This document shows, in pieces, positions 1-17,755 of a stretch of DNA of 64,000 bases. The first letter of the stretch is position 1. Each line of letters begins with the position of its first letter. Under the pieces are notes generated by a model that saw only the letters and a program-made list of their open reading frames with translations, did not search any database and was not told where the DNA came from. The DNA is taken from NCBI RefSeq assembly GCF_026241755.1, contig NZ_JAPJDA010000021.1:1-64000 (forward strand). The letters run 5' to 3'. Made by a program: the position numbers and the translations under genes. The stretch comes from Salinimicrobium profundisediminis (GTDB taxonomy: Bacteria > Bacteroidota > Bacteroidia > Flavobacteriales > Flavobacteriaceae).

Positions 1-897
1 GCCATAGTGACAGTTGTAGACAATGAACTACCAACTCTTAGCCTCCAAAATATAACCCGTAAACTTACCAGTATAGATGGGCTAACGGTTCCTGCGACAG
101 AATTTATTTCTACAGTAAACGATAATTGTAGCTATACTATCACACCAGCTAATTTTACCTTCGATTGTACAGATGTTGGATCTCAACAAGTGTCCATCAC
201 AGCAAAAGATGGTGCAGGGAATGAGGTTACCAAAAATGCCCAAATTACAATTGAAAACCCCGATGCTCTTGTAGAGCCCAGTGAGGGTAATACGGTAGTT
301 TCTTCACCGGGAAATTACACGGTAGTTGATAGTAATCTACTAATTCACCTGTCTGACAATGTCGATGGTGCAACTGTTTCTATCAATGAAAACTTCCATA
401 CAGGTGATGAGTTGAGGTTGGCTACTGGTTTTACTTTGCCTTCAGGGGTGACCAGCAACTATAGTGCTTCAACCGGAGTTCTTACCCTTTCGGGAACTAT
501 GACTTCCCAGGAACTACAGAGCATTTTTCAGAATATCCAGTTTCGCACCAGTAGTAGCAACGTTCTTGAAAGGGAAGTAGTTTTTAACATTGGAGGAGGA
601 GTATCTAATTCCGATAATGATCATTATTACGAATATGTAAGTGGTGCTTTCACCTGGGAACAGGCCAGGGCAGATGCCGCAACAAAAACCTTAAATGGTT
701 TGCAGGGATATCTTGCCACTGTTACCTCAGCTTCAGAAAATGAATTCATTACGACCAAACTATCCGATGATGGCTGGCTGGGAGGTTCTGATAGTTATAC
801 ACAAATTAATTCAGCTTTAGGAAGTTCACTTTACGCAAATCAAACAGAGGCTGAAGCAAAAAACTCCAGACAACTCAGCACTATGCAAAAATTTTAG
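1..897 (+). pseudogene. HYR / C-type-lectin-like adhesin, 3'-truncated and open at the left edge
   Basis: The frame is open to base 1, so the true start lies outside the window. The visible part begins inside a HYR-like Ig-fold repeat (DNELPTL, then a cysteine pair around residues 41 and 53), continues through a ~110-residue beta-rich segment, and enters a C-type-lectin-like domain from about residue 208 (YYEYVSGAFTWEQARADA, then GWLGGSD). Lectin domains of this type normally continue through a W-x-W-V-T-G-P-E stretch. Here similarity stops near QTEAEAK, and the last ~12 residues look like out-of-frame recombinase sequence. The gene is therefore probably the 3'-truncated remnant of a large secreted adhesin. 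Domain assignments are by eye and the ligand is unknown. Confidence 0.6.
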
Positions 898-974
898 ATA
901 GAAAAATCAGTGATGACATGGCTGCTTTGAAAGAAAGGTTAGATTCCTCTTTGGACGCAATAAGTTTGAAATAG
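855..974 (+). pseudogene. Tyrosine recombinase (integrase) C-terminal remnant
   Basis: In a different frame from the adhesin, bases 855-974 encode KKLQTTQHYAKILDRKISDD followed by a short helical tail and a TAG stop. The TTQHYAK-I-L-D-R-K motif is the active-site tyrosine segment typical of Bacteroidota tyrosine recombinases of mobile elements. Upstream in the same frame a TGA stop occurs at 852 and the sequence is lectin-like, so the catalytic Arg/His core and the arm-binding domain are absent. The remnant fused to a truncated lectin gene marks a deletion or recombination junction near base 855-862. It cannot be functional. Confidence 0.72.
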
Positions 975-1194
975 GGATTTCACTAATATTAAGCATCGAA
1001 AAAAAGTTTAGCTAAAACATGCATTTTCCCTAAGTGAAAATAACGTAAAAAAACAGATGCTGATTTTCAGATATAACAATTAATATTTTAGGAAGTTCTT
1101 CATCTGTATTTTAATTGTGAGAGTCAAATCCACTAGAACTTTAAAATAATATAAAACCAAAGCAAATTTATTATCAATTACTATCTGGCATTCA

Positions 1195-1880
1195 AATTTC
1201 AATTTTCAGTAGAAGAACTCAGCAGTTTTCTCCAGCAAATTCAAAAACGAGGATTCGAGAAAATACATAAAGGTAAACCAGATGGCCTTCTGAATTACGA
1301 AAGGAACCAGAAGATTGGATCAGGAAATACCAGGAATGGCTTTACTCAAAAGAAGGTTCGCAGTTCTTATGGGGAAGATATTATAAAAGTTCGCCAGGAC
1401 GAGTACGGATCCTTTAATCCCGTGATCGGTCCCAAACGTCAGAACACATTATTGACGGTATCAAAAATGTCAATGAATCGCTGTACGCCAAAGGAATGAC
1501 CAATGGTGATATCCAGAAGTAAATTTCTGAGATTTATGGATGTAATATCTCTACATCTACCATTTCCCGAATTATAGAACGGATCAGTAATGATATTGTT
1601 GTCTGGCAAACCGCACTTTAGTGCCTATTTATTTGATCATCTGGATGGCCGGAATCATTAATTAAGTGGGAGAGAACTCCAAAATAATCAATAAGACAGT
1701 AAATGGCTGTCGCCCTTAAAAGAGATAGTCAAAAGAGAATTGTCCTTCCCAACGGATGATGCTGTAATGAAATAGGTATTATGGCTCTACGCAAAGCAAC
1801 CAAAAAGGGCCAGTACCAATAAGAAACTGGGTAATCGTCCTCAATCAGTTTTTGATTAGATACGAAGGAAGGGTTTAGCT
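1195..1880 (+). pseudogene. Decayed IS256-family transposase
   Basis: Fragments in several frames match the layout of IS256/Mutator-type transposases. These are a GSGNTRNGFTQKKVRSSYGE stretch near 1315-1375, a D-E-Y-G-S-F-N-P-V-I block, LYAKGMTNGDIQ near 1480-1515 followed by an in-frame stop, STSTISRIIERISNDI near 1550-1600, and then, after an apparent internal deletion of the catalytic middle, LKEIVKRELSFPTDD near 1715-1765. Multiple stops and frameshifts show it is dead. I could not define terminal inverted repeats. The bases between the recombinase remnant and this relic (975-1194) hold nothing I recognise. Confidence 0.68.
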
Positions 1881-1943: not shown

Positions 1944-2858
1944 TTAACTCTTGTATTTCATCTCAAAACCTGGTGCATAAATGAACTCTTTGACTTTATT
2001 GGGCTCCAACTTTGGATTTGCTCCTTTTTCTCCTGCAACCAAGGCGCCTACCGCACAGGCATAATCCAATGCAACTTGCACAGCTTCACCTTCAAAAAGC
2101 TTAGCGAGGAGACTTGCTAAAAAGGAATCACCAGCACCAACAGTGTCTTCTACCTTTATTTTGAATCCGCTGTTGTAGTAAAGCTTCTCATCTTTTAATA
2201 AAACTGCTCCATGTCTGCCTTTTGTAACACAAATAGTTTTGGCAGCAGATCTTTCGGCTATAAACCTGAGGTTTTGCTCTAAGGAGTGGTAGGGGGAGCC
2301 AAGGATTTCTGCTATTTCAAATAATTCGTCATCATTAAACTTAATAAAATCGGCTTTATTGATGAGATAACATAAAAGTTCTCTTGTATAGTGTGGAGGC
2401 CTAAGATTAAAATCCAAGACCTTATATTTTGCTGTTGGGAGCAACTCAAACAGGCTGTTTCTGCTTACCTCATCCCGGCATACCAAGCTTCCGAAAATAA
2501 ATATATCGGCCTCCTCTACGGCCTGTTGATTCTCCCGCTTTACCTGGATCTTATCCCAGGCGGCCGGATAGGCGATTTCATAGGTGGCCGATCCGCTTTT
2601 GGAAAGGCGCACATTCACCACTCCGGTCGGGTACTGAGGATCTCTGAGGACATTGGTAGTATCCACTCCTTGCTCTTCCAAAAATGTGATTATTTGTTCC
2701 CCTTTTTTATCGGTTCCTACTCTACTTATCATCCGGGTATTTACCCCCAGGCTGCTCAACCTTGCCGCAACATTTAATGGAGCGCCGCCAATTCTCTCCT
2801 CATCGGGAAAGACATCGTATAGTATTTCACCGAAACAGACTGCTCTAATTTTTGTCAT
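1944..2858 (-). CDS. Fructokinase, PfkB family
   Basis: This is a cytoplasmic sugar kinase that would phosphorylate fructose released from fructans to fructose-6-phosphate for glycolysis. The 304 residues are full length for a PfkB/ribokinase-family fructokinase. The N-terminal G-E-x-L-Y-D-x-F-P and R-I-G-G-A-P-L-N (residues 10-29) form the sugar-binding start, and the C-terminal signature D-T-V-G-A-G-D-S-F (238-246) carries the catalytic Asp244 and anion hole. It is the last gene of the minus-strand fructan operon, 31 bp after the GH32 stop. Its place beside two GH32 enzymes supports fructose over other PfkB substrates. The corresponding kinase in the Bacteroides thetaiotaomicron fructan locus is BT1757. 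Confidence 0.9.
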   Translation of the reverse strand: MTKIRAVCFGEILYDVFPDEERIGGAPLNVAARLSSLGVNTRMISRVGTDKKGEQIITFLEEQGVDTTNVLRDPQYPTGVVNVRLSKSGSATYEIAYPAAWDKIQVKRENQQAVEEADIFIFGSLVCRDEVSRNSLFELLPTAKYKVLDFNLRPPHYTRELLCYLINKADFIKFNDDELFEIAEILGSPYHSLEQNLRFIAERSAAKTICVTKGRHGAVLLKDEKLYYNSGFKIKVEDTVGAGDSFLASLLAKLFEGEAVQVALDYACAVGALVAGEKGANPKLEPNKVKEFIYAPGFEMKYKS

Positions 2859-2889
2859 ATTTAAGCTTGTTAATTCTAATTTTTCAACT

Positions 2890-4404
2890 CTATTTATTCA
2901 CTATAGGTTGGATGTAAAGCGATTGTATAAATTCTGCTTCAGAATCAGAGTGTATTTGAAGGTCCCCAAACGGGGTATTAGGAAATATTAAAAAAGTAAT
3001 AACACGCTCTCCTCCATTTACGAAAATCTCCACTGAAGATTTATCTACCCAAATTTCTAATTCTAATTCATTGCTCTCCGGTAATACGTATGGAATGAAT
3101 AAATTGTTATTATTCAGATTGTTAAAACTATAACCAGCATCATTTCTGTTTATTACAAATTCTGATGTAGTTTTATCATACTGCAATGATACTCCACTCG
3201 TTTCATTTCCCCAGAAGAGCTCTATAGATTTGTCTTTGGACAAATCTAGTGTTGTATTGATTTGAAAAGTCCCGGTTTTTAGAACTGGATCATTTTTAAT
3301 ATCTACACCGTTAGTAGTATATTCAACACTATTAGAAGCTAAAACTGAGCTCATCTCTTCAGCAGGTTTACTTAGAAGCAGATCACCGTTATTAGATAAT
3401 TCAAGCGTTCTGGGCAAGGTCATGGCACTTCTCCAAGCTGTTGTAGGTACATTTTGTGCGTAAGCCCAATTGCTCATCCATCCAATAAATAAATTTCTCC
3501 CATTCGGTTCATTACTCCAGGTCACGCCAGCATAATTATCGGTACCGTAATCTAGCCATTTAGTTTCTGTCTGACTTGTCTCAAAAGTTTCCCCATCAAA
3601 AGAACCAAGAAAATATTGAGTTCCTGAACCTCCATTAGGTGCTCCTGGATTAATGCTAACCAGCAGTGCCCATCGCTCTTCTCCATTTTCATTTCGAACA
3701 GTAAAAAGATCCGGACATTCCCAAACTCCTCCATGCGCCCCATGACCATGACCAAAACTTTGAAGATACTCCCACTCCTTAAGATTCGGGGAGGAATAAA
3801 AAATGATTTCCTGTCCTGCGGCGACCACCATTATCCATTGTTGCTTTTCTTCGTGCCAGATTACTTTTGGATCTCTAAAATCGGTTTTATCCTCATTGGT
3901 TAAAACAGGATTCCCCTCATACTTTTGCCAGCTACGCCCCTTATCATTGCTATATGCCAGACTCTGATATTGTTCATTAGTCTCTGGATTATGATGTGTA
4001 AATATTGCTGCCAATACATCTTCATCTCCCGTTTTGAATCCGGCAGTGTTGTGAGTATCAACAATCGCACTGCCGGAAAATATGTTTCCCAAATCATCAG
4101 GATACAGAGCCACCGGAAGCTCCTCCCAGTTTACCAGATCCTCACTCACTGCATGCCCCCAATGCATTGGCCCCCAAACATTGTCATCTGGATTGTATTG
4201 AAAAAACAAATGATATTCACCTTTGTAGTACACCATTCCATTTGGATCATTCATCCAATTCTTTTCCGGCGTGAAGTGGTAGGCAGGTCTAAAATTATTA
4301 TCTCCCACTTTAATCACTGAAGGCTCATTTTCTTCATCTTCCTTAGTACAGCCCAAAATGATTAATGAAAGCACAATAAGTAAATATTTATTTTTACTGA
4401 ACAT
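2890..4404 (-). CDS. GH32 fructanase lipoprotein (levanase/inulinase/invertase type)
   Basis: This is a retaining beta-fructosidase that would hydrolyse fructan at the cell surface or in the periplasm. The catalytic triad is visible: nucleophile Asp53 in W-M-N-D-P-N-G, transition-state stabiliser Asp178 in R-D-P, and acid/base Glu229 in E-C-P-D-L. A five-bladed propeller is followed by a C-terminal beta-sandwich (~365-504), as usual for the family. The signal peptide ends in L-G-C19, and the following T-K-E-D-E resembles flavobacterial lipoprotein surface-export signals. It lies between the binding lipoprotein and fructokinase genes, with 14 bp separating it from the former. Sequence does not decide endo versus exo action or levan versus inulin preference. 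Confidence 0.93.
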   Translation of the reverse strand: MFSKNKYLLIVLSLIILGCTKEDEENEPSVIKVGDNNFRPAYHFTPEKNWMNDPNGMVYYKGEYHLFFQYNPDDNVWGPMHWGHAVSEDLVNWEELPVALYPDDLGNIFSGSAIVDTHNTAGFKTGDEDVLAAIFTHHNPETNEQYQSLAYSNDKGRSWQKYEGNPVLTNEDKTDFRDPKVIWHEEKQQWIMVVAAGQEIIFYSSPNLKEWEYLQSFGHGHGAHGGVWECPDLFTVRNENGEERWALLVSINPGAPNGGSGTQYFLGSFDGETFETSQTETKWLDYGTDNYAGVTWSNEPNGRNLFIGWMSNWAYAQNVPTTAWRSAMTLPRTLELSNNGDLLLSKPAEEMSSVLASNSVEYTTNGVDIKNDPVLKTGTFQINTTLDLSKDKSIELFWGNETSGVSLQYDKTTSEFVINRNDAGYSFNNLNNNNLFIPYVLPESNELELEIWVDKSSVEIFVNGGERVITFLIFPNTPFGDLQIHSDSEAEFIQSLYIQPIVNK

Positions 4405-4418
4405 ATCCTTCTTTTGAT

Positions 4419-5831
4419 TTATTGCACTTTTAAATAATCCAGCGCATTTTTAGTAATAGCTTCGATATTTTCCTGAAAGTTATTTTTCCCATTATTTTGG
4501 TTCCACTCGAAGGATCCAATCCCAATTCCTATTGCGGTACCATTAAATTCGTCATTTGGTAAGGTTTCAAAAATTCCCATCATAAAATAATCTGCAATAC
4601 CATCCCAGGTGCCAAGTATATTTATTTGATTTTCTTCACTTATGGTTGTATAGGCAGCTTCATCAGCATTCCCATAGCCATAATAAGCCGGAAGATCTAC
4701 AAATACATAATTATGATCTTCTTTCCACCCAGGGCCAATAAGTGGGATTATTTTGCGACCATCAACATTGTTGGCATTCAGTCCTTCAAAGATGGGATGT
4801 GAACTTTTATCGTGAGCCCGCCCAATATTGACATTAACCCCCCAGGTATCCGGATTGTCAAATCCTCCCCCGGCACCTATAGCTGTTCCGAAATTGGGGG
4901 TCATACGACCGATGGTCCAGAGATACTGCACTGCATGGGTATTCAAGAGTAGAGCACCTCCTTTTCTATGGAATTCTGCAATAGCAGAAACAACTTTCTC
5001 ACTCGTGGCTTCTGCGGGAAGTGCTGGATTATTGCTGTCATTATCATAATGCCACCAAAGCACCCTAAACTCACTCAGGTCAAGCCCTTCTTCAATATCT
5101 GAAAATTGAACATATTCAGCATCAGGATAATTTTCAAAAAGCCAGTTTGCAGAAGCAATCACGTCATCATCGCTGATAGACCCAACATTTGGTGCAGTCC
5201 CCAAATAGCCAATTTTAGTTGCTCCCACAGTGAAGTTTAAGTATTTTGAAGGTGATGGATTGCCTTCTTCATCCATGGCGTTAATTTGAAATTTATAAGT
5301 GCTGTAAGTCTCATTATTAAAAGTATAGGAAGTGGCATCTGCCGGGAGGCTTATTTCTTCCGAATCAACTCTTAATCGAATACCTGATATGGTTTCCTCA
5401 GGCAAGGTCCAACTTAAGTTTATATTTGTTCCTTCCTGGACTCCTCTGAAGTTGGTTACAGCCTGAGGTCCTTCCCGATGCAGGATCACTGTTTCTCCTA
5501 AAGAGTAATTTCCTTGGTCATCCTGAAGCTTGACGGTGAAGAAGTAATCTGTATTAACATCTATGATTCCGTATTTAAATATATGGACGGGAGCATTAAT
5601 GTTTTCAATCCCTTTGTTGTGATTAATTCTTGTTGTAAGGTTACCTTCGTAGGAAGGATTATCCCACCTAACAACGGCAGTATCCCCCACCAGTTCTACC
5701 TGTAGGTTGTCGACTGAAGATATTACCGGCGCTGCTACAGGTTCGATATCGCGGTCATAGGAACATGAAATAAAAGTCCCCAGAAAAACAACTATTAAGA
5801 CAATATCTTTTAAATTATTAAAGTTGATCAT
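4419..5831 (-). CDS. Surface glycan-binding lipoprotein of the fructan locus (DUF4960-like C-terminus)
   Basis: This is a 470-residue lipoprotein (signal peptide with F-I-S-C23) with two fibronectin-like beta-sandwich segments (~35-115 and ~118-200). A ~260-residue C-terminal domain follows (V-G-A-T-K-I-G-Y-L-G onward), containing an alpha/beta glutamine-amidotransferase-like layout (F-R-V-L-W-W-H-Y-D, K-G-G-A-L-L-L-N-T-H). I associate this architecture with DUF4959/DUF4960 proteins beside SusD in fructan loci, such as levan-binding BT1761, but the family assignment is from memory. No catalytic residues are recognised. Its place directly after SusD and before GH32 fits a surface glycan-binding protein that captures fructan for SusC/D. 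Confidence 0.72.
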   Translation of the reverse strand: MINFNNLKDIVLIVVFLGTFISCSYDRDIEPVAAPVISSVDNLQVELVGDTAVVRWDNPSYEGNLTTRINHNKGIENINAPVHIFKYGIIDVNTDYFFTVKLQDDQGNYSLGETVILHREGPQAVTNFRGVQEGTNINLSWTLPEETISGIRLRVDSEEISLPADATSYTFNNETYSTYKFQINAMDEEGNPSPSKYLNFTVGATKIGYLGTAPNVGSISDDDVIASANWLFENYPDAEYVQFSDIEEGLDLSEFRVLWWHYDNDSNNPALPAEATSEKVVSAIAEFHRKGGALLLNTHAVQYLWTIGRMTPNFGTAIGAGGGFDNPDTWGVNVNIGRAHDKSSHPIFEGLNANNVDGRKIIPLIGPGWKEDHNYVFVDLPAYYGYGNADEAAYTTISEENQINILGTWDGIADYFMMGIFETLPNDEFNGTAIGIGIGSFEWNQNNGKNNFQENIEAITKNALDYLKVQ

Positions 5832-5843
5832 AATTATAATGTT

Positions 5844-7538
5844 TTAGTAGCCTGTATTTTGTACATATACATCCTGACTGAAGTTTATCTGAGCCTGTGG
5901 AATGGGTAAATATTCTTCCCGACCTTCATCAAATGAAGCGCCCTCGTAATAGGTGATTTCCTCGGCTTCTTCATCGTAATATTTGTTAAGAGTTTCTCCT
6001 GCAATACCCCATCTTACAAGATCAAAGAAGCGATTTCCCTCCATTGCAAGTTCTAACCTGCGTTCCCAGCGCAATGCCTCACGGGCTACATCTTGGGTCC
6101 AGTTGATGTTTTCGCCGTCTATATAAGGACTTACCCCAGCATTATTGGCGTAAGCCGATATTAAGGTAGTACTTTGATCTGCCCTTTCCCGTACTTCATT
6201 TATTAAAGGAAGCGCTTCATTGTGTCGTCCAAATTCGATTAAAGCCTCTGCTCGCATCAACAACACGTCTGCATAACGAATCTCGATTCTATTTTTCGAG
6301 TTTCCATAGAAAGGATCTATGTTAACGAGATACTCCGAATCTGCAGTCACATTCTCCTTTAAAGAAGCAGTATATCCGTAGGTACTTGGGGATCTTACCC
6401 AATTTTCCTGATAGATATCCTCTTCATCATATTTCCAGGGCAGACCAGGAATTGCTACAGTATGATATAACCGGGGATCTACACTATAATTTTCCAGATT
6501 ATTGAAATCAATATTTGATTCGTTGTAATTTGTAAATAGAGGTAAGCCTTCTTCGTTAACTTTATACGCATTTACCAGGTTTTGACTTGGTTTATGGAAG
6601 TCACAACATCCAATTCCCTGAGGGGTTGCCAATACATCTGAAAAATTCAACCTTCCGTGTAGTGTCCCATCATTGTCTGAAAATTGGATTGAAAATACTG
6701 CTTCCGGCCCGTTTTCAAAACTCCCGGGCAGAAAATTATAAGCAAAATCCTCTTCAAGTTGATGTTTCCCAATTACGTGAGCTGTTGCATCTAAAACTTG
6801 CTGTAATCTTTCGGGGTTAACATTGACGACATTGTGATTCTCATCTTGTTGGTAAGCCTGATAGAGCCGTGTTTTCGCCAGGTATGCATATGCTGCTGTT
6901 TCATCTGCTCTTCCGACTTCAGGTTGTGAAAGGGGGAGATTTTCGGCTGCTGCTTCGAAGTCACTCGCAATAGCGTTCCATAGTTCATCATTACTTAAAG
7001 CACGATTCGAAATATTCCCATACTCCTCCACAGGAATATCTTCTGTTACGTATGGAACATATTTGTACATGATCTTCAACATGAAATAAAAGTGTCCTCT
7101 CAAAAATCTCATTTCTGCGATTCTGGTTTCCTTCTTAGGAAAATCAGCTTCGTCGATTTGGTTCAAGGCAGCCAATGCTTTGTTTACTCTTGAAATAGCA
7201 ATAAAACTGTTGTACCAGAAAGCATCCAGTTCACCAAAATCGGGTCTTATATTCTCTGATACTTCAAAGAAGTGAAAAACCTGGATGTCATTTGTGCCAC
7301 TCCCTCCTTTGTAAGCATCATCAGAGCGGACATTTCCATAGGGCCAAAGACTAAAGGGAATGTCATAGTGATCATTACCCAATGCTGCATAAGCTGCTGT
7401 CACAAATCCATCAACGTTTTCAGGAGTTGCCAATTGTTCTTCAGATAGTACCGCATAAGGATCTTCCTCCAGAAAATCTGAACATGCAGCGGAAATAGTT
7501 AAAAGAACTATGCCGAGTAAATATTTTATTTTGTTCAT
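5844..7538 (-). CDS. SusD/RagB outer-membrane lipoprotein (fructan)
   Basis: This SusD-family lipoprotein caps the SusC transporter and binds the polysaccharide outside the outer membrane. The signal peptide ends I-S-A-A-C19-S-D-F-L-E-E, the usual SusD lipobox followed by an acidic stretch. The body shows family landmarks: R-F-L-R-G-H-F-Y-F after ~140 residues, an A-Y-A-Y-L-A-K-T-R-L-Y TPR segment, N-R-I-E-I-R-Y-A-D-V-L-L-M-R-A-E-A-L, and the C-terminal R-W-E-R-R-L-E-L-A-M-E-G-N-R-F-F-D-L-V-R-W-G. Length (564) is normal. It starts 19 bp after the SusC stop and is followed within 12 bp by the binding lipoprotein gene. Confidence 0.95.
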   Translation of the reverse strand: MNKIKYLLGIVLLTISAACSDFLEEDPYAVLSEEQLATPENVDGFVTAAYAALGNDHYDIPFSLWPYGNVRSDDAYKGGSGTNDIQVFHFFEVSENIRPDFGELDAFWYNSFIAISRVNKALAALNQIDEADFPKKETRIAEMRFLRGHFYFMLKIMYKYVPYVTEDIPVEEYGNISNRALSNDELWNAIASDFEAAAENLPLSQPEVGRADETAAYAYLAKTRLYQAYQQDENHNVVNVNPERLQQVLDATAHVIGKHQLEEDFAYNFLPGSFENGPEAVFSIQFSDNDGTLHGRLNFSDVLATPQGIGCCDFHKPSQNLVNAYKVNEEGLPLFTNYNESNIDFNNLENYSVDPRLYHTVAIPGLPWKYDEEDIYQENWVRSPSTYGYTASLKENVTADSEYLVNIDPFYGNSKNRIEIRYADVLLMRAEALIEFGRHNEALPLINEVRERADQSTTLISAYANNAGVSPYIDGENINWTQDVAREALRWERRLELAMEGNRFFDLVRWGIAGETLNKYYDEEAEEITYYEGASFDEGREEYLPIPQAQINFSQDVYVQNTGY

Positions 7539-7557
7539 AATAAAGAGTTTAATGTTT

Positions 7558-10500
7558 TTAGAGAGATAGGTTCAATCCAAGAGTTACTGTAAGTGGTTGG
7601 GGATAACCCCATCCTGCATTTTCAGGATCTACTCCAGTAAAATCTGAAGAAGTTATCATTAGGAGGTTCTGACCGCTTACATAGAACCTAGCATTCGTGA
7701 AATTCATCCTTTCCAGAACCGCTTCCGATAGGCTATAACCCACCTGAAGGTTTCTCAATTTCAAGTATCGTCCATTCTCCACATAATAGGTAGAAAACCG
7801 AGATTCTGCGTTTCTGTCGATTGTTGTTAGAGCTGGTATGGTTGAGTTTATATTTTCGGGAGACCAGGCGTCAAGAAGTCGGGCTCCCTTATTGGACCCA
7901 ACGTCATCAACGCTCCAAAAATCTGTTTGGAATTTGCGACTATTAATTACATCAACATTTCCAACTCCTTGCCAGAAAGAGGTAAAATCAAAATTTTTAT
8001 ATCCCAGTGTGATGTTAAAGCCATAACTAAAATCTGGATGTGGTATTCCAATCCATGTGCGGTCATCATCGGTAATAATTCCGTCCCCATCTAAATCTTT
8101 GTAGCGGAGTCTACCAAGGCCTTTCCCTTCTTGTTCAGCAGCATTCATTACCTCTTCTTCGGTCGTGAACAGACCGTCTGTAACATACCCATACATAGAA
8201 TTAATCGGTCTCCCAAGAATATTGTCCTCACCTCCATCACCACCATAGCTGTTCTGCACCTCTTCTGGCAGATAAGTTATTTCATTTCGGTTAGTGGAAA
8301 TATTGGCTGAAATCTCATAGCTGAAATCTCCTTCAGTTTCATCGCGGTAAGTTAGTGCGAATTCCCAACCTTCATTCTCCATGGAAGCCCCGTTTACCCA
8401 TCTGTTTCCTCCTTCACCTATTGTTCCCAGGTATGGAGGTAATACCAGAATATCTTCAGTTTCCTTAAAGTAATAGTCAAGATTTCCAAATAATTTATAT
8501 CCGAAAAATCCAAAATCAAGCCCGATATTAGTTTGAGTAGTAGTTTCCCATTTCAGGTCATCATTTCCAATCTGTATTCCTCTAAACCCTGAAGGCAATA
8601 AACCTGATCCACTTCCAGAGAGATCGTACGCTGTTCCATATGAGGTTCCCCAGGTAGGATCACCTCCAGCATAATCCGATACATATAAAGAATAGATAGC
8701 GTTGTTATCAATTTCCTGATTTCCAGTTTGCCCCCATCCAAGCCGTAGTTTTAGATCGGAAAAAAATGAATAATTATTGTGTATAAAATTTTCCTCACTT
8801 ATACGCCATCCAGCAGAAAAGGCCGGAAAAGTTCCAAAGCGATTATTTTCTCCAAATCTTGATGAGCCATCTCGTCGTATGGTAGCTGAGAATAAATATT
8901 TCCGATCGAAAGTGTAGTCCAGTTTCCCAAAGAAAGAGAGCAGGCTGTAAGAAGTAGCAGAACCTCCATTATAGGCTTCACCACTTCCTGCATCAGGATA
9001 CATATAATCCGGTGTTTCAAGAACAAAACCTTCCCTCCTTAGATTAATGTTCTTATAGTCATCTCTAAACATTTCTGTACCAGCGAGCAAACTTAATTCG
9101 TGATTCTGAATTTTTACCTCGTAAGTAGCTGTGTTAGTCCAGGTCCATTTCAAACTTCTCCAGTCCTCAATATTTACTGCTGTTTCATTGTTTTGCAGAT
9201 AACCTGATTTATAACTTCTTTGAAGAGAACGGCGATAAAAATTACTGTAGTCAATTCCAAGATTTGTCCTTAAATGAAGATTTTCAATAAGCTCCAGGTC
9301 AGCGTAAGCATTTCCAAACACCCGATGATATTCATATCCATTGTCTTTATTGTACTCAAGTAAACGTACAGGATTTTGCCTGTCGTTCATTCCACCAACG
9401 GGTCCACCCCAACCTTCTCCATCTACCGTGCGAACAGGAATAATAGGAGATGCTTTTAATGCCAGGTCTAGAACACCAGGATTTTGAACTTCATGAGTTT
9501 TATTGAAGGTAAAGTTTTCCCCTATTTCCAGCCTATCTTTAAACAATTTATAGCTACTGTTCATCCTTGCCGAAATCCTGTTAAATTCTGTGGTCTTTAC
9601 GATGCCTTCATTCTCATAATATCCAAGAGAAAAAAGATAATTCCCCTTTTCTGTTCCATTCGAAACTGACAAATCATAAGATTGGGCAAAACCTGTTTGA
9701 GAGATCTCATCAAACCAGTCTGTATCTGCAGAATATAAAGTTTGTTCATCATCCAGATATTCCGGAACTATAATATTGTTGAGAACAGCTTCGCCAATAT
9801 CATTGTAGCCCCAATCGAACTGGTATCGCAAATTGTTAGAATTAGGATCAATTCCGTCATTTATTTGTGCCTGCCAAAGGACTCTCCCATATTGTTCTGC
9901 ATTGAGCACTTCCTGTCTATTGGCATAAGTAGAGGCCGATACATAAGAATTAAGATTAATCTGCATTCTTCCTTCTCTTCCTTTTTTAGTTGTAACTATA
10001 ATTACCCCATTAGAAGCTCTTGATCCATATATACTGGCAGAAGAAGCATCTTTTAATACTTGAATTGACTCAATGTCATTTGGGTTCAATTCATGCATTC
10101 CAGCCTTGGTTGGTACTCCATCAATAACATATAGAGGATCTGTATTATTTAGAGTCCCAACTCCACGAATCACAACCTGAGTATTAGAGCCACTTGGAGA
10201 ACCATCTGAAGTAATTTGAACCCCAGGAAGCCGTCCCTGTAAAGCTCTAACCGGATTAGGTTCCGGTTGTTTATTGATTTCCTCCATGTCTACCACCGAA
10301 ATGGCTCCGGTAATATCAGTCCTTCTTTGAGATGTATAGCCCGTTACCACCACATCATCCAACTGTTGAGCATCCATGGTAAGAGATACATTAATTTCTG
10401 TTTGATTATTTACAGCTATTCTTTCAGTTCTAAAACCTAAATAACTATATAACAATGTGGCTTGAGGATCAACATTTGTAATGGTATAATTTCCGTCAAA

Positions 10501-10656
10501 ATCTGTTACTACACCTTCATTTGTCCCTTCTACCTGAATGGAAACTCCCGGTAGAGGCATTTGATCATCTTCGGAAATTACGGTTCCCGATATTTCTATT
10601 CCCTGCGCCCACATAGAAATGGGTAGGAGAAATAATATTAAGAATTTACTATTCAT
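7558..10656 (-). CDS. SusC/RagA TonB-dependent transporter (fructan)
   Basis: This is a 1032-residue outer-membrane beta-barrel importing fructo-oligosaccharides with energy from TonB. It has a signal peptide (ending M-W-A-Q-G), a carboxypeptidase-D-like N-terminal domain (I-S-G-T-V-I-S-E-D to ~105) and a TonB box-like stretch L-D-D-V-V-V-T-G-Y. The plug follows with the SusC signature L-Y-V-I-D-G-V-P and S-I-Q-V-L-K-D-A-S-S-A-S-I-Y-G-S-R-A-S-N-G. The C-terminus is S-L-N-L-S-L with a terminal hydrophobic residue, as barrels require. It lies mid-operon, 10 bp after the first GH32 gene and before susD. Confidence 0.96.
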   Translation of the reverse strand: MNSKFLILFLLPISMWAQGIEISGTVISEDDQMPLPGVSIQVEGTNEGVVTDFDGNYTITNVDPQATLLYSYLGFRTERIAVNNQTEINVSLTMDAQQLDDVVVTGYTSQRRTDITGAISVVDMEEINKQPEPNPVRALQGRLPGVQITSDGSPSGSNTQVVIRGVGTLNNTDPLYVIDGVPTKAGMHELNPNDIESIQVLKDASSASIYGSRASNGVIIVTTKKGREGRMQINLNSYVSASTYANRQEVLNAEQYGRVLWQAQINDGIDPNSNNLRYQFDWGYNDIGEAVLNNIIVPEYLDDEQTLYSADTDWFDEISQTGFAQSYDLSVSNGTEKGNYLFSLGYYENEGIVKTTEFNRISARMNSSYKLFKDRLEIGENFTFNKTHEVQNPGVLDLALKASPIIPVRTVDGEGWGGPVGGMNDRQNPVRLLEYNKDNGYEYHRVFGNAYADLELIENLHLRTNLGIDYSNFYRRSLQRSYKSGYLQNNETAVNIEDWRSLKWTWTNTATYEVKIQNHELSLLAGTEMFRDDYKNINLRREGFVLETPDYMYPDAGSGEAYNGGSATSYSLLSFFGKLDYTFDRKYLFSATIRRDGSSRFGENNRFGTFPAFSAGWRISEENFIHNNYSFFSDLKLRLGWGQTGNQEIDNNAIYSLYVSDYAGGDPTWGTSYGTAYDLSGSGSGLLPSGFRGIQIGNDDLKWETTTQTNIGLDFGFFGYKLFGNLDYYFKETEDILVLPPYLGTIGEGGNRWVNGASMENEGWEFALTYRDETEGDFSYEISANISTNRNEITYLPEEVQNSYGGDGGEDNILGRPINSMYGYVTDGLFTTEEEVMNAAEQEGKGLGRLRYKDLDGDGIITDDDRTWIGIPHPDFSYGFNITLGYKNFDFTSFWQGVGNVDVINSRKFQTDFWSVDDVGSNKGARLLDAWSPENINSTIPALTTIDRNAESRFSTYYVENGRYLKLRNLQVGYSLSEAVLERMNFTNARFYVSGQNLLMITSSDFTGVDPENAGWGYPQPLTVTLGLNLSL

Positions 10657-10666
10657 AGGAGTTGTA

Positions 10667-12268
10667 TTAATTGAAATTTAGTTGATTGATCTGAAAATTT
10701 TCTATTGTAAAATTCTGCTCTCCATCCGCAGTAATTGTTTGGAAAAGTTCATTGGGAAAGAAAATTTCGGTCATTACTGTCTTTCCATTATCATAAAAGA
10801 TCTCAATTGAAGTTTTATCCAGAACTATTTTAACGTTCAGAGATTCCGCATTGGATAATCTTGGTGCAGTCGAGACCTCCTTACCAAAGACATCCTTAAA
10901 TTCGGTTAGACCTGAATTCCCCCTGTTTAGAAAAAATTCTTTTTCTATTCCAGAGTATCCAAAAATTAATTGATCTCCTTCACTATTCCCAAGCGTGAAT
11001 TCATACCGTTGCTCCTGAAGGTTGGAAATATCAAAACTTAGAACAGCTTTTGATAGATTTATATCTTCACCCGCAAGTATGGTACTATCCTGAACTACTA
11101 TTTCTTTTTGGTCAACACCTGTAGAATAATATTGCTTCAGTTCTTGTACCGGAGAAGAAAGGATTCTATAGGTACTTCCTTCCTTATTTAATTTTAGAGT
11201 CCTGGGAATGGTCATAGAGCTACGCCATTGCTCGGTAGGAACTTCATTAGCATATTCCCAGTTAGACATCCAACCAATAAATAAACGACGGCCATCAGAT
11301 TCCGGAATATTTGACCAGGTAACCCCAGCGTAGTTATCTTTCCCGAAATCTATCCAATAGTCATGTTCTTCCCCAATCTCTGCAATAGATTCATGCGGAG
11401 TGAAAGTTGTTCCATCAAAATCTCCAATAAAATATTGTGTTGCCGAACCTCCATTAGGCCCGCCTGGATTTATACTAACAAGTAGTACCCATTTCTCTTC
11501 ACCTGTCTCTTCCACTGTCATTTTAAATAGATCAGGACACTCCCAAACACCTCCATGCCCCCCAAGGTTTTGTCCGAAATCGCTTTCGTGTTCCCACTCA
11601 AGAAGATTCAGTGAGGAGTAAAAACTAATATGGTCTTGAACAGCTAATGACATAATCCATTTTTGCTCTTCTTCAAACCATTCTACTTTGGGATCTCTAA
11701 AATCCCTAATGCCTGGATTTCCAAGCACTGGATTCTGATCATATTTGATCCAGGTTTTTCCTTTGTCTAGACTATATGCTATACCTTGAGTCTGGAAATC
11801 ATCTCTTCCTGCATCGGCGGCTTCAGCATCATGATAAGTAAAAATTGCTATAACCGGGGGAATGTCCCCTTCACCAAGACCTGAAGTGTTGTTATGGTCA
11901 ACAACTGCACTTCCTGAGAAAATTGTTCCATGTTTATCCGGTTCAAGAGCAATGGGCTGTTCTTCCCAGGTAATAAGATCGGTACTTGTGGCATGACCCC
12001 AGTGCATAGCCCCCCAGACATTATCATCGGGATTATGCTGAAAAAATAAATGATATGTTCCATCTAAATAGAACATTCCGTTGGGATCATTCATCCATCC
12101 TGAATCCGGTGTAAAATGAAAAATTGGTCTGTATGCGACTTCTTCTTCACTTTGTGCCGGTGCCACTTCTTCTTGTGTGGCTGCTCCTTCTTTACCTTTA
12201 TCCTGGCAAGAAGACAAACCAATACTCGCGAGGACAGAAATTTGTAATATTAGGATATACTTTTTCAT
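10667..12268 (-). CDS. GH32 fructanase lipoprotein, second copy
   Basis: This is a second GH32 enzyme of 533 residues, paralogous to the one at 2890-4404 and with the same triad: Asp61 in W-M-N-D-P-N-G, Asp192 in R-D-F-R-D-P, and Glu243 in E-C-P-D-L. The signal peptide ends G-L-S-S-C21, so it is a lipoprotein. A ~25-residue Glu/Ala/Pro-rich linker follows and would hold the catalytic domain away from the membrane. A C-terminal beta-sandwich covers ~395-533. It is the second gene of the operon, 3 bp after the transporter gene. Two GH32 enzymes may divide surface cutting and periplasmic trimming, which is inference; their linkage preferences are not readable. Confidence 0.93.
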   Translation of the reverse strand: MKKYILILQISVLASIGLSSCQDKGKEGAATQEEVAPAQSEEEVAYRPIFHFTPDSGWMNDPNGMFYLDGTYHLFFQHNPDDNVWGAMHWGHATSTDLITWEEQPIALEPDKHGTIFSGSAVVDHNNTSGLGEGDIPPVIAIFTYHDAEAADAGRDDFQTQGIAYSLDKGKTWIKYDQNPVLGNPGIRDFRDPKVEWFEEEQKWIMSLAVQDHISFYSSLNLLEWEHESDFGQNLGGHGGVWECPDLFKMTVEETGEEKWVLLVSINPGGPNGGSATQYFIGDFDGTTFTPHESIAEIGEEHDYWIDFGKDNYAGVTWSNIPESDGRRLFIGWMSNWEYANEVPTEQWRSSMTIPRTLKLNKEGSTYRILSSPVQELKQYYSTGVDQKEIVVQDSTILAGEDINLSKAVLSFDISNLQEQRYEFTLGNSEGDQLIFGYSGIEKEFFLNRGNSGLTEFKDVFGKEVSTAPRLSNAESLNVKIVLDKTSIEIFYDNGKTVMTEIFFPNELFQTITADGEQNFTIENFQINQLNFN

Positions 12269-12271
12269 ATT

Positions 12272-13624
12272 TTAGATAGTTTGTTGTTTTTTATTTGGGG
12301 TTTTTCTAATGGATAATTCTTCACTTAATTCTTCGAGAGACTTTCCTTTAGTTTCTGGCATCATGAAAATGACAAACAAGAGTTGAAGCACCATCATAAA
12401 TGCGAAAAACGCAAATACGTAAGCTGGACCTATGGTCGAGAACAAAAATGGGATCAATGAGGGAATGATTGCTGCTAATAACCAGTGAGTGGAAGATCCA
12501 AAAGCCTGTCCTGAAGCGCGTAGATGATTAGGGAAGATTTCAGAAATGAAAACCCAAATTACCGCTCCTTGTCCTATTGCATGAGCCGCAATGAACATGA
12601 ACAGGAAAATGGGAACAGTTAAACCTCCCCAATTCAGGAAAAAAGATGCTGCCACAAGAGATAGGGAAATAATATAACCTATGGAACCAATATACATTAA
12701 CAATTTTCGGCCCAGCTTATCGATAAGTACCACTCCAAGGATCGTAAAAAGCAGGTTTACCACTCCAATTCCGATACTGCTGAGCAATGCAGTACTTTCC
12801 CCTAAACCGGCTGCTTCAAAAATACGTGGTGCATAATATAGAAAGGCATTTATACCCGAGAGTTGATTGAAGAAAGCTACAAGGAAAGCAAGAATTAGAG
12901 GGAATCTGTACTTTTTCATAAAAATGTGTTCCCCCGTTAAGTTTGACTCTGATTGTTTCTTTATTTCAATCATCTTTTTTTCTACATCCCCATCTGGCTG
13001 TATCAAACTTAATATCTTACGGGCCTCTCCTTCTCTTGCCTTGGATATGAGCCACCTCGGACTCCTGGGGATAAAAAATACAAATGCAGTATAAATGAAT
13101 GCAGGTATGGCCTCCACGCCCATCATCCACCTCCAGGGTTCTTCTCCCGTATTTCTTAATAAGTAATTAGATAAAAAAGCGACCAGAATACCCAGAACGA
13201 TATTAAATTGATAAAGAGACACAAGACGCCCGCGATATTTTTGTGGAGCGATCTCTGACACATAAGTAGGTGCTGCAATAGTAGAAGCTCCTACCCCAAG
13301 TCCTCCAATAAATCTGAAAACGGCAAAAGAAACAGGATCATTGGCAAGTGCAGAACCAAGAGCAGAGATTATGTATAACAATCCTATAAATAACAAAGTA
13401 TTTTTTCTACCAAACTTATTTGTTGGAACGCCACCAAAAATGGCTCCTATTACTGTTCCCCACAGGGCCATCGCCATCACGACTGAGCCATGGAAGGCAT
13501 CAGAAGTACCCCAGGCAGCCTGAAGAGATTTGTCAGCTCCTGAAATAACAACTGTATCAAATCCGAATAAAAATCCTGCCAATGCAGCAGTTATTGACCA
13601 AGCTAAAATTTTGTTCATTTCCAC
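12272..13624 (-). CDS. MFS sugar porter (inner-membrane fructose/hexose importer)
   Basis: This is a 450-residue major facilitator of the sugar porter family with about 12 membrane segments. Diagnostic motifs are visible: G-x-x-x-G-F-D in TM1 (F-L-F-G-F-D), N-K-F-G-R-K after TM2, R-F-I-G-G-L-G-V-G, the P-E-S-P-R-W-L equivalent I-P-R-S-P-R-W-L-I, D-K-L-G-R-K between TM8 and TM9, and P-E-T-K-G-K-S-L-E-E at the C-terminus. It would import fructose or glucose released in the periplasm. It is the first gene of the fructan operon, downstream of the regulator, and corresponds in position to BT1758. Met3 is an alternative start. Confidence 0.93.
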   Translation of the reverse strand: MEMNKILAWSITAALAGFLFGFDTVVISGADKSLQAAWGTSDAFHGSVVMAMALWGTVIGAIFGGVPTNKFGRKNTLLFIGLLYIISALGSALANDPVSFAVFRFIGGLGVGASTIAAPTYVSEIAPQKYRGRLVSLYQFNIVLGILVAFLSNYLLRNTGEEPWRWMMGVEAIPAFIYTAFVFFIPRSPRWLISKAREGEARKILSLIQPDGDVEKKMIEIKKQSESNLTGEHIFMKKYRFPLILAFLVAFFNQLSGINAFLYYAPRIFEAAGLGESTALLSSIGIGVVNLLFTILGVVLIDKLGRKLLMYIGSIGYIISLSLVAASFFLNWGGLTVPIFLFMFIAAHAIGQGAVIWVFISEIFPNHLRASGQAFGSSTHWLLAAIIPSLIPFLFSTIGPAYVFAFFAFMMVLQLLFVIFMMPETKGKSLEELSEELSIRKTPNKKQQTI

Positions 13625-13767
13625 ATTTTTTAATCAGCAACTAAGATAAATGGAAAGGAACCTGAAGAAATTTAGGAATCACCTAAATCGTTATAATTTT
13701 GTTAAGTCGGATTTAAAAATACACAATACCTTGTTTAACAGTAATTTACGTCAATTAATTATTTTAG

Positions 13768-13781
13768 CTATAACGTTATAG
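13768..13781. promoter_or_regulatory. 14-bp perfect palindrome in the fructan operon promoter region
   Basis: CTATAACGTTATAG is a perfect 14-bp palindrome in the 204-bp gap between the regulator gene's stop (13829) and the transporter's start (13624). It is 144 bp upstream of the first operon gene. It is a candidate operator for the AraC-type DNA-binding domain of the neighbouring regulator. AraC proteins more often use direct repeats, so the assignment is weak. I did not find a convincing TAnnTTTG promoter in this gap. Confidence 0.3.
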
Positions 13782-13828
13782 TTTTAAAAATGATACCTCA
13801 AGTTTAATAATGTAACATCAGAAAGATT

Positions 13829-16594
13829 TTAAACAGAGTCTTTTAAAGGTTCTTTGGAATCTCTGAATTTTTTAGGAGTTAGACCGTACTTATTTTTAAA
13901 GGATGTGGAAAAATAACCTGGAGAAGAATACCCAACGCTGTAAGCAATCTCAGACACGTTTAGATTGGTATCCTCTAATAAATATTTTCCTTTTGCGAGT
14001 CGTTGGGAATTAATATATTCATTGACCGTTAATCCTAACATAGCTTTAACTTTTCTATACAAGTGTACTCTTGAAATATTGAAAATATTTGAAAGCTCCT
14101 CAACTGAAAAATTTTGATCCTGTAAATTTTTATCAATAACCTCATTTAGCTGTTTCAGGAATTCCTGTTCGGAGGTATTGAGCTTATTATCTTCAATTTC
14201 ATTAATCCTATTTGTGTAATAGTACCTCAATTTCTCTCGGTTGTACAGTACTGACACCACCGATTGCTTAAGAACTTCCAGATTAAAGGGTTTGGTAATA
14301 TAAAAATCCGCACCACTACGCAAAGCCTTTATCCTCGATTCCTCATCGTTAAGGGCGGTTAGAATTATTACCGGGATATGAGAGGTTCGAAGGTCATTCT
14401 TTAATTCTTTACATATTTCAAATCCGCTTTTGTCCGGAAGGTTTAAATCACATATTATCGCGTCCGGCACAATATCAAGAGCTTTCTCTATGGCATCCGT
14501 TCCGTCGGAATGATGTAGGTTGTATTCTTTATGAAAGTTCCTCTGAATTAAATTCGCCAAATCAAGATTATCTTCAATTAAAAGTATATTCAGTTCATTG
14601 TCCAAAACACCAGGAAGATCTTTCATCACTGCCTGTGGATACAGTGAGTCTATATGAGTCTCTAATTTTTCATACTTTAAAGGTTCATCTTGAGAAATTA
14701 TATAATCCTTTAGATGTTCCGTCCCTTCAAGCAGTGACACGCAAAACTCAGTTCCTTTCTTTGATCTTAAGGAAACCGTGCCTCCATGAAGTTTTACAAA
14801 TTCTCTGGTTAGATACAAGCCCATTCCTGAGCCCGGTTTAAGATTATTAGTTGCTTGAAAATAGGGATCAAAAATTCGTTCTTGTTCTCCTGAAGGAATT
14901 CCTATACCCGAGTCCTTCACGTAAATATTGATTTTTTTAGGATCGGAACTTTCTTCAATACGGACAGAAATTTTTCCGTTTTTCGGAGTGAATTTTAAGG
15001 CATTCGAGAGCAAGTTGAAAAAGACTTTGTCCATCATATTTCTATCAATATAAAGTTCAAGTTCCTTATTTGTACACTTTAAATCCATATCAATGGAATT
15101 TATAGCAGCTTCTGTTTTAAAATCATGAAAAATGGATTTAAAAAACTCATATATATTTGTTCGACTTGGTTTTATCACAAAAGATCTAGTCTCTAGTTTT
15201 CGGAAATCCAATAACTCATTAATAAGACGCAACAATCTTTTTGAATTATTCATTATAAGCCTTGTCTCATATTTGTAATTATCAAGGTCTTGATCTTTTG
15301 CTTTACTCAGAGACTCTACCGAGCTCGTAATAAGTGTAAGAGGAGTCTTAAATTCATGAGACAATGCAGTGAAAAAATTAATTTTTGTCTCGTTGGTTTT
15401 CCTCAACTGTTTAGCGAAATTTTCAATCTGATTCCTTTGAACCACAATTTTTTTATTAATGATTTCGAGACTTCTTTTTCCCCGTTTGACTCTAATTAAA
15501 AGATAAATACTATATAGGGCAAGAATCAACAGGAGGAATAACAAAAAAGCCATAAGCTGAATCAGACTGTTCTGAGTATTATAGGAGGTGATTTGTTCCC
15601 GAATGATCGCCTGCTGTTCTTCAATATCCGTCTGCTGCTGATTTAACTTATTAAACTGGTTCTGCATAATATCCACATTAACAGAATCTATGACCACTGT
15701 CTTAAGGATATTATTTTTTTCTACTACTTCATTTTGAAGCAGATTCTTTGCAAGCCGTATTGCTTCACTTCCTCCTGTTGGATAAAGTATGGTAGCTGAA
15801 AGTATTCCATCCTTTACCAGTTGGATTCCCCCACTGGGGCCATATAGTCCGTCCACTCCCACGAAAATAATGTTATCATCAAGGCCTTTTTTCCTGGCTA
15901 CCTCAAGAGCTCCCTGTGCCATTCTATCATTGTGAGTGAAGATGTAATTTACATTAGAGGTGGAATCAAGAATTTTTTTAAGTCCTACTTCAACTGAATG
16001 TTTCTCCCAGTCGCCCTGAACCGTACCTATGATCTTTAAATTGGTTTGTTTATTAATGACATTTCTGAATCCCAGAGAGCGTTCGTATGCTGGAGAAGAT
16101 CCCGCCAAACCTTTAATTTCAATTATATTCCCCTTCTTGTGGCTCGCATGAGACAATATGTACTTTGCAGCATTCCCTCCTACCTCTACATTGTTTGCCC
16201 CTACATATGCTGTGTAATTACTCCCTTCTATTTTGCGGTCTATCACAATAGTCGATATGCCTTCACTCATGGCCTTTTCAATTATTGGGGTAATAGGTGC
16301 AGATTGAATAGGAGAGACTATCAGTACATCAACCTTTTTATCAATTAAAAGATTTATGTCCTCTATTTGTTTTTGGATATTTCCAGCTGCGTCGAGAACT
16401 TCAAGATCAAGTTCAGGATGCAAAGAAGTTTCAATCCTCATAGATCGATTCATCTCTTTCCGCCAGTTATCTGTTGTCATTGCCTGGGAAAAACCTATTA
16501 AGTAGCCTTCACGCTCTTCATCTGGGCTACAGGCAGAAAACAGAATTATAAGGAGGATGGATATAGACCTTACATATTTCACTATTGTTTTCAT
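13829..16594 (-). CDS. Hybrid two-component system regulator with periplasmic sugar-binding domain (fructose sensor)
   Basis: This is a single-polypeptide sensor and regulator of 921 residues. In order it has: an N-terminal signal/anchor with C22; a type-1 periplasmic-binding domain (~30-315, ribose-binding-like, with V-D-V-L-I-V-S-P and T-I-V-I-D-R-K); a membrane helix (~345-368); a HisKA domain with phospho-acceptor His413 in S-H-E-F-K-T-P; an HATPase (N-A-L-K-F-T-P, D-S-G-I-G-I-P, G-S-G-M-G-L-Y); a receiver with Asp716 in I-C-D-L-N-L-P; and a C-terminal AraC HTH (~815-915). The same architecture in BT1754 binds fructose in the periplasm and switches on the fructan locus. Its place directly upstream of that operon supports the same role here. 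Confidence 0.93.
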   Translation of the reverse strand: MKTIVKYVRSISILLIILFSACSPDEEREGYLIGFSQAMTTDNWRKEMNRSMRIETSLHPELDLEVLDAAGNIQKQIEDINLLIDKKVDVLIVSPIQSAPITPIIEKAMSEGISTIVIDRKIEGSNYTAYVGANNVEVGGNAAKYILSHASHKKGNIIEIKGLAGSSPAYERSLGFRNVINKQTNLKIIGTVQGDWEKHSVEVGLKKILDSTSNVNYIFTHNDRMAQGALEVARKKGLDDNIIFVGVDGLYGPSGGIQLVKDGILSATILYPTGGSEAIRLAKNLLQNEVVEKNNILKTVVIDSVNVDIMQNQFNKLNQQQTDIEEQQAIIREQITSYNTQNSLIQLMAFLLFLLLILALYSIYLLIRVKRGKRSLEIINKKIVVQRNQIENFAKQLRKTNETKINFFTALSHEFKTPLTLITSSVESLSKAKDQDLDNYKYETRLIMNNSKRLLRLINELLDFRKLETRSFVIKPSRTNIYEFFKSIFHDFKTEAAINSIDMDLKCTNKELELYIDRNMMDKVFFNLLSNALKFTPKNGKISVRIEESSDPKKINIYVKDSGIGIPSGEQERIFDPYFQATNNLKPGSGMGLYLTREFVKLHGGTVSLRSKKGTEFCVSLLEGTEHLKDYIISQDEPLKYEKLETHIDSLYPQAVMKDLPGVLDNELNILLIEDNLDLANLIQRNFHKEYNLHHSDGTDAIEKALDIVPDAIICDLNLPDKSGFEICKELKNDLRTSHIPVIILTALNDEESRIKALRSGADFYITKPFNLEVLKQSVVSVLYNREKLRYYYTNRINEIEDNKLNTSEQEFLKQLNEVIDKNLQDQNFSVEELSNIFNISRVHLYRKVKAMLGLTVNEYINSQRLAKGKYLLEDTNLNVSEIAYSVGYSSPGYFSTSFKNKYGLTPKKFRDSKEPLKDSV

Positions 16595-17755
16595 AAAAAT
16601 GAATGTACCTCTGCATCTTCATAAGTTCCACCAAAATGTCCAAATATTTGGATTAACTTTTAACAGATGCCCTTTTTAAATTTTACGATTTTCCCGCCAA
16701 ACAAAAGGGAAAGTATATATGGGCTTATTAAAAGAGAACCTCATAAATAACCGCCACAATTTTGAATGCTGTTACTTTTTTTTTAGCAAATGGAAAGGTA
16801 ACAAATTTCAATAGGAGGCTTTCTGCTAGATTGAATTTACTAATCTTTTTTTTGCAATAATAAATTATACAATTTAAAAGCTTATATCAACATGTGACAA
16901 GAGACTTAGAAAGTTTTTTCAGATATCCCTTTAGATTTGCTGATTTAATCCTGTGATAGCATTAAAATTCTATGAAACTTTTTGCTTTTACTTCCTATTG
17001 CGCATTCCTAAGCTTATATACCCCTTTTTTCGTATATAATCAAGAACTGATTGAGGACGCTTCCCCGGTTTCTAATCGGGGTTTACCCTTTTGGTTGCTT
17101 ACCCTAGGGGCAAATATACAGATTACAGAACACTCGTTAGGTGAGGTCACAGACACTCACTGAATTTAAAGCATATACACGGTATGAGTTCACCTACTTT
17201 TAATTAGCTGAAATGCCTTTGTAAATAAATAGACAAAACACATAAGAATTAAGGCCTAGATATTCTCACATTATGTTTACGCCAAAAAAACTCTTTAAAA
17301 ATTGTGCAAGTAGAAAATATAAAGTTACAACCCTCATATTTTTTAATCTTGCCTGTGAAATTCCAGAGCTACTATTTATACATAATAGAAAATACATGAA
17401 GCTAATTTATGGTGTACCTGCCAAAGCTTCAGAAGTTGCCTAAGGGTTCTAACACTAGGTGGAATACCAAATATTCTTATAAAAACTGCATAATCAGGAT
17501 TTAATTATCGTTTAATTAATCAAAACCAGTACACATAAGGGCTCAGAAAATTTTACTGTATCCCCTACTCTAAAGTTCTAGGTAAGACAATATTATATAA
17601 CGAATAAAACTATTTGTATATCAGCACTATACAGATTTTTTTAATTAAATAACATCGCTTTAGCGTGTTATCCTCTTGCTTTCCTTTTTACCAGCTAATT
17701 AAATTGCTGCTTCTTATAAGTTTTTGACCATCTGGAGCAGTCAAAAGTTTCCTAC
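16595..17755. other. Long gene-poor AT-rich spacer
   Basis: About 1.16 kb between the regulator start and the RadC-side terminator holds no recognisable gene. The only open frame of note, a 63-codon frame at 16972-17163, has a hydrophobic N-terminus but no family resemblance. The regulator's promoter should lie at the left end (16600-16700), but no clear TAnnTTTG element was found. The rest looks like decayed or non-coding sequence. Confidence 0.5.

Follow-up and report, generated by a model that had tools for sequence, protein, structure and literature searches.

Where a giant surface adhesin gene meets the last codons of a tyrosine recombinase, as happens near the end of a contig of Salinimicrobium profundisediminis, the question arises as to whether the two make a new fused gene, or whether the DNA was joined by deletion, by recombination, or in assembly. 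The window analyzed here is a stretch of 64,000 nucleotides, bases 1-64000 of contig C15 (82,639 bp) in a draft genome of 4.04 Mb in 101 contigs, and its base 1 is the contig end. C-numbers (C3, C9, C13, C15, C20, C21, C37, and C90) denote contigs of this same genome, and G002, G004, G007, G010, and G011 are congener genomes, that of G010 being in one contig. The junction is most likely a product of ordinary genome decay rather than a newly fused gene, and 1-897 should not be annotated as an adhesin, nor 855-974 as a recombinase. The features around it are as follows.

1-856, + strand: adhesin fragment of a 3'-truncated giant surface adhesin, from the paralogues on C37 and C3; frame open from the contig end
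610-856, + strand: tract near-identical to C37 with a single mismatch at 786, from alignment with C37
848-856, + strand: AGGCTGAAG, common to the adhesin and the native PorP-downstream flank; presumed deletion joint, from sequence comparison
857-974, + strand: 3' end left over from a tyrosine recombinase (integrase) gene, corresponding to C90 integrase residues 377-412 and closed by its own stop at 972-974
975-1205, + strand: sequence that followed the lost integrase gene; C13 has 975-1199 as well, within its 90% match
1206-1934, + strand: Mutator-type transposase debris (PF00872, 23.8 bits against a cut-off of 21)

The two truncated parents

The reading frame at 1-897 (+) is open from the contig end, the 5' part of this adhesin lying beyond it and outside the sequence, and encodes HYR-like repeats followed by the N-terminal part of a C-type-lectin-like domain. 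Its product is 93% identical in amino acids to the paralogue on C37 and 85% to that on C3, both of which extend past the joint. DNA and protein alignments with the two paralogues hold to base 856, the last certain adhesin base, in agreement with an earlier note in which the frame lost lectin similarity at about 855-862; past this point C37 stays lectin (GKWYWITGPEAG...), the window diverges, and its frame closes at 895-897 in non-adhesin sequence. The lectin label is borrowed from the paralogues: Lectin_C (PF00059) scores above cut-off in one piece of C37 (L002; 24.9 versus 22.6 bits) and narrowly under it in longer pieces of C37 (L028; 20.9 bits) and C3 (L029; 22.1 bits), and a Pfam search at E 0.1 gave no Lectin_C match in the window fragment. 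In a genus-wide search with a 442-position adhesin model, four of 11 genomes match besides the genome's own, and among the rows listed only at columns 1-106, the repeat part of the adhesin; a scan of genome contigs with the fragment returned 39 pattern matches, none of them confirmed as a relative. We note that the C3 adhesin, the presumed ancestral copy, lies in three overlapping frames within its repeats (L029 1-6628), from frameshifts or assembly errors.

Similarity to C37 is uneven. Over 287-586 the two are identical at 254 of 300 positions, and 610-856 differs at one base only (C37 locus L028 325-571). The sharp mosaic border to the left of 610-856 resembles those left by paralogue gene conversion, and appears to reflect a recent event, gene conversion or exchange, among the copies of the adhesin.

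From 857/858, in a different frame from the adhesin, the sequence holds the final 39 codons of a tyrosine recombinase gene (translation of the frame at 855-974: SKKLQTTQHYAKILDRKISDDMAALKERLDSSLDAISLK, then the stop). Bases 857-942 match C90:101374-101459 (97% DNA identity over 86 bp, E 3.6e-34) within an intact 412-amino-acid integrase that has all three domains (arm, SAM-like, and catalytic) above the Pfam cut-off and lies 243 bp behind a tRNA-Ser. The recombinase segment that had been proposed to run in another frame to a stop at 974 is thus real. The proposed fusion of adhesin to recombinase tail stands as a DNA junction and falls as a protein, since the frames differ, and a functional adhesin-recombinase fusion gene was rejected on the same ground. 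Tested for the arm, SAM-like, and catalytic domains of a functional tyrosine recombinase, the isolated 39-amino-acid tail gave no Pfam match. The segment presumably retains the catalytic tyrosine, and the tail should be inert because no other integrase domain is kept with it. It resembles the tRNA/tmRNA-linked tyrosine integrases of genomic islands (PF00589, PF13102, and PF17293), with one of which (C90) it shares the DNA identity given above; unlike these, the window keeps 39 codons only and has no tRNA (ARAGORN).

Broken integrase genes of this type are not rare. The tail has matches in 97 of 299 family genomes, and among the 150 matches listed (there are more than 150 in all) 131 lie in frames of at least 400 amino acids and 14 in frames shorter than 200, window and C13 included. 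When all 14 of these listed short-frame tails were examined, only those of the window and C13 began at residue 377; four others that look truncated or internally deleted begin at residues 205, 346, 356, and 368, and the remainder are mainly frameshifted longer genes, with one cut by a contig end. The window and C13 tails are probably of one origin.

The joint and its history

On C13, the integrase tail and about 230 bp of downstream DNA lie behind a PorP/SprF gene (ending at 771; TIGR03519) and precede an amidohydrolase gene (PF01979) ending at 1243; sought as a synteny anchor, the amidohydrolase has a best match of 29% identity in the other 11 genus genomes. Window 848-1199 aligns with C13:871-1221 at 90% identity (E 1.5e-131), and with this match and that to C90 at E 3.6e-34, a chance origin of the similarity at the joint is excluded. 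A second PorP copy, on C9, is 97% identical to that on C13 over 561 bp, and the match stops at the joint: the C9 flank (TTTAAGGCTGAAGCAAAAAACTTCCGAAG) continues, with no integrase, into genes for a LytTR response regulator and histidine kinase. The PorP flank of G010 is the same as that of C9, also without an integrase; this native PorP-downstream flank reads AGGCTGAAGCAAAAAACTTCC. Since C9 and G010 have this flank without an integrase, GGCTGAAGCAAAAAACTTCC is native PorP-downstream sequence, and C13 has that flank joined to an integrase tail.

These comparisons suggest that the joint in the window is probably not a direct adhesin-by-integrase event, because the C13 tail has the same left border behind PorP, and because the bases to the left of the tail are native PorP-downstream sequence, present without an integrase in C9 and G010. 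We placed the joint at 848-856, where the bases AGGCTGAAG fit either side; they are present at both parental kinds of site, in the C37 adhesin and in the PorP flanks of C9, C13, and G010. When the window adhesin was compared with the PorP flank, only one of 847 positions matched by at least 5 bp, and this was the joint (9 bp); among 6277 positions of the longer C37 adhesin there was one match of 9 bp and another of 8 bp. Against a passage through a PorP-bearing copy, PorP remains in the window as a few flank bases only. A mobile repeat of 350 bp delimited by 848-1205 was also considered, and was put second because its left border falls in native PorP-downstream sequence.

We consider it likely that an adhesin-PorP pair was duplicated, that a copy was joined to an integrase remnant, and that about 7 kb was then deleted between AGGCTGAAG repeats in the window. 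The ancestral order would have been an AraC-type regulator, the giant adhesin, PorP/SprF, and a LytTR regulator, represented in this genome by C3 (regulator and adhesin) and C9 (PorP, LytTR, and kinase). This order is contiguous in G010, with an AraC-type regulator (81% amino acid identity), an adhesin bearing a TIGR04131 sorting domain, PorP (96%), and a LytTR gene (93% over the residues left). Against this reading, the LytTR gene there is cut to 68 residues, the lectin segment has no match in the G010 adhesin, and no histidine kinase was found in the stretch read at this locus. Behind the cut LytTR gene lies a sodium:alanine symporter gene (PF01235; L231 5829-7157); a gene of the same family stands beside tRNA-Arg and an integrase on C20 of the window's own genome (L031 2283-3677), orthology not being implied. 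An adhesin-PorP copy would then have been linked, at a point some 120 bp past the end of PorP, to what was left of the 3' end of a tRNA-linked integrase gene together with its downstream region, a state that C13 may preserve, and a sister copy, that of the window, would have undergone deletion between AGGCTGAAG in the lectin-like domain and AGGCTGAAG in the PorP flank, losing the rest of the adhesin together with PorP. With C37, G010, and C13 as rulers, the deletion comes to 5716 (adhesin) + 378 (gap) + 879 (PorP and flank) = 6973 bp, a figure of about 7.0 kb that holds if the window adhesin was as long as that of C37. The order of events is our reconstruction from these copies.

The contig links C3-C9, C37-C13, and C20 or C21 to C15 are likewise inferred. 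There are three 5' ends (C3, C20, and C21), three bodies (C3, C37, and C15), and PorP ends on C9 and C13 plus the truncated end, parts that would add up to three loci; C20 and C21 are taken as probable adhesin ends from a common upstream stretch. Contig searches from the left end of the window led to C3 and C37 only, and from the right end of C37 to C3 only, and no short repeat contig was found between C37/C3 and PorP.

The chief alternative is a one-step illegitimate joining of adhesin to integrase, independent of C13, whose own breakpoint would then be there by coincidence or later exchange. To the right of 856, a single substitution separates the window from the C90 integrase, whose frame is kept, and the window tail is nearer to C90 (97%) than to C13; over 857-869, direct joining leaves one substitution and the route through C13 one missing base, an equal fit. 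But two independent breaks would be needed within a few bases of the same codon region, both with the same downstream region, and the nine bases to the left of the joint occur unchanged in two native settings that have nothing else in common, so that we regard one-step joining as unlikely.

The preferred history also has to be weighed against an assembly artifact, in which two contig ends were bridged across the 9-bp overlap by gap-closing or scaffolding. Such an error would suit a joint that is 850 bp from a contig end, in an adhesin family that breaks contigs (C37 and C3 have 77 terminal bases in common, as do C20 and C21) and next to a tract, 610-856, nearly identical to C37. The common ends of 77 bases suggest assembly with a de Bruijn graph at k=77, with contigs ending as at branch points, and such a graph would make no edge from a 9-bp overlap; moreover, no more than 77 bases separate the window-specific base at 786 from the joint, which sets the copy running into the joint apart from C37. 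We judge an artifact distinctly improbable.

Comparisons with C37, C3, C90, and C13 agree with the earlier claim that both parents are truncated at one joint, as in a deletion or recombination scar. Of the checks suggested with that claim, the search for an unbroken adhesin and an intact integrase of the same clade led to C37/C3, which extend past the joint, and to C90, all in the same genome; nothing found elsewhere had the joint sequence as a normal adhesin 3' end, the condition named as refuting the claim. A search for an undeleted form of the window locus returned only the G010 orthologue of the ancestral locus and the paralogous copies on C37, C13, C3, and C9. Side by side in one genome, the parallel copies display the native flank, an intermediate, and the end state, and make the origin of an odd junction readable.

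Deletions between short direct repeats by illegitimate recombination, as described for Salmonella LT2 (PMC3411829), are alike in having a repeat at the joint, one copy kept, and the intervening DNA gone, and the microhomology cut-off deduced there for confirmed spontaneous deletions was at least 8 bp. The present case differs in that the process is read from parallel copies and not from an undeleted parent of the window locus.

As for function, the window adhesin should not be displayed on the cell, because the region of the sorting domain (located in G010) and the PorP partner have been lost. Tested for the C-terminal sorting domain and adjacent PorP/SprF gene of a type B T9SS adhesin, the window has neither: its frame stops at 897, and integrase tail and transposase debris follow. 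Adhesins with type B C-terminal domains are suggested to be anchored by a PorP-like partner, as in the SprB-SprF type (PMC9143113). The paralogous modules are alike in pairing a giant adhesin with PorP/SprF (TIGR03519 on C13; TIGR04131 in the G010 adhesin), and the window copy is unlike them in being without sorting domain and partner.

Downstream debris and the fructan locus

The downstream region of the lost integrase has a partial counterpart in this genome, 1095-1205 matching, at 76% identity, a stretch some 120 bp past a second intact integrase gene, on C20. When 80 named integrase loci with 3-kb flanks were searched, the coding tail alone was matched; 975-1205, its C20 counterpart, the PorP flank, and the transposase debris had no match there. 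The debris (IS256 by IS name) lacks its first ~16 codons (starting at about residue 17), contains stops and frameshifts, and has lost some 470 bp from its interior when set against a copy in G010. An 80-bp piece of it (1794-1873) recurs inverted at 17022-17100 with 81% identity, beyond the other end of the gene cluster common to G002, and G010 matches the window at 17297-17480 also.

Behind the debris, the fructan locus (the earlier note's label) starts with a PfkB kinase at 1944-2858. The suggestion that the scar marks a former element boundary to the left of this locus is not supported. The orthologous locus of G002 matches window 1954-16603 at 84% with other left-hand genes, related loci in G004 and G007 have another gene order and their own left flank, and there is no tRNA in the window. 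What speaks for the idea is an integrase to the same side of the locus in two congeners, about 16 kb away beside a tmRNA gene in G002 and about 33 kb away in G004; none was found in the 16 kb read to the left of the G007 locus. Repeats of the att type around the locus were sought with three tRNA/tmRNA 3' ends only. Judged by a flanking integrase with att/tRNA sequence and the same flank in relatives, the scar does not qualify as the boundary of an integrative element carrying the locus, and a standing link between it and the integrase remnant is not supported.

Integrases around the adhesin copies

Several ends of the inferred adhesin copies bear integrase or tRNA-att-like sequence, beside otherwise ordinary decay. 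The three inferred copies have six ends, four of which carry an integrase, an att-like copy, or an integrase tail:

C20: integrase beside tRNA-Arg
C21: att-like copy of the tRNA-Arg 3' end
C13 and C15: integrase tail

The ends of the presumed ancestral copy (C3 and C9) carry no integrase or att-like sequence. On C20, tRNA-Arg, the intact integrase, and the 1095-1205-like region are followed by the start codon of the next gene at the contig end, and the last 198 bp are 94% identical to C21. Part of this common stretch (91 bp, 90%) is also found upstream of the C3 adhesin. At C21:53605-53689 (L081 3606-3690), the tRNA-Arg 3' end is repeated together with the DNA that follows it, in a copy of 85 nt with 92% identity. 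We note that it stands just before the gene start common to C20 and resembles the far att site of an island.

One explanation of integrase or att-like sequence near several adhesin ends is cleavage by the recombinase at AAAAACYTCC within its own 3' end, for example in a switch of adhesin 3' ends, and the PorP flank AAAAACTTCC does resemble the integrase sequence AAAAACCTCC at the C13 joint. A recurrent breakpoint is absent, however, with only window and C13 at residue 377 among the 14 listed tails, no reciprocal product was seen in the comparisons made, and integrases of this clade lie beside tRNA-Ser(TGA) in 23 of the 27 loci scanned, which makes such cutting highly improbable.

A bolder reading, which we offer tentatively and consider possible but doubtful, is that giant T9SS adhesin-PorP modules grew in number in this genome as cargo carried by, or lying next to, integrase islands that target tRNA genes, the scar in the window being a worn module boundary. 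Should the window and C37 adhesins prove to continue from C20 and C21, the duplicated modules would be inside or beside tRNA-linked islands, and the pattern, if true, would illustrate one route by which marine Flavobacteriaceae add to and vary their large surface adhesins. Against this stand the unassembled links and the tRNA-poor surroundings of congener adhesins, since eight stretches around these contain a single tRNA-type gene, the tmRNA of G011, some 20 kb away from the adhesin there.

The choice of integrase target tracks integrase subclade. The tRNA-Ser(TGA) lies about 240 bp upstream of integrases at least 60% identical to that of C90 (27 of the 32 such loci were included in the tRNA scan, which covered L151-L191, 40 of the 80 named integrase loci, and L032), and a tmRNA gene occupies that place in 13 of 13 loci whose integrases are 50-53% identical to it. 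Two or more broken integrase tails are also found on the minus strand of C5 (~105990-109430; L082/L033), with direct repeats of 54-61 bp (85-95%) nearby, one of them directly behind a tail, an arrangement that resembles a worn tandem array of att sites.
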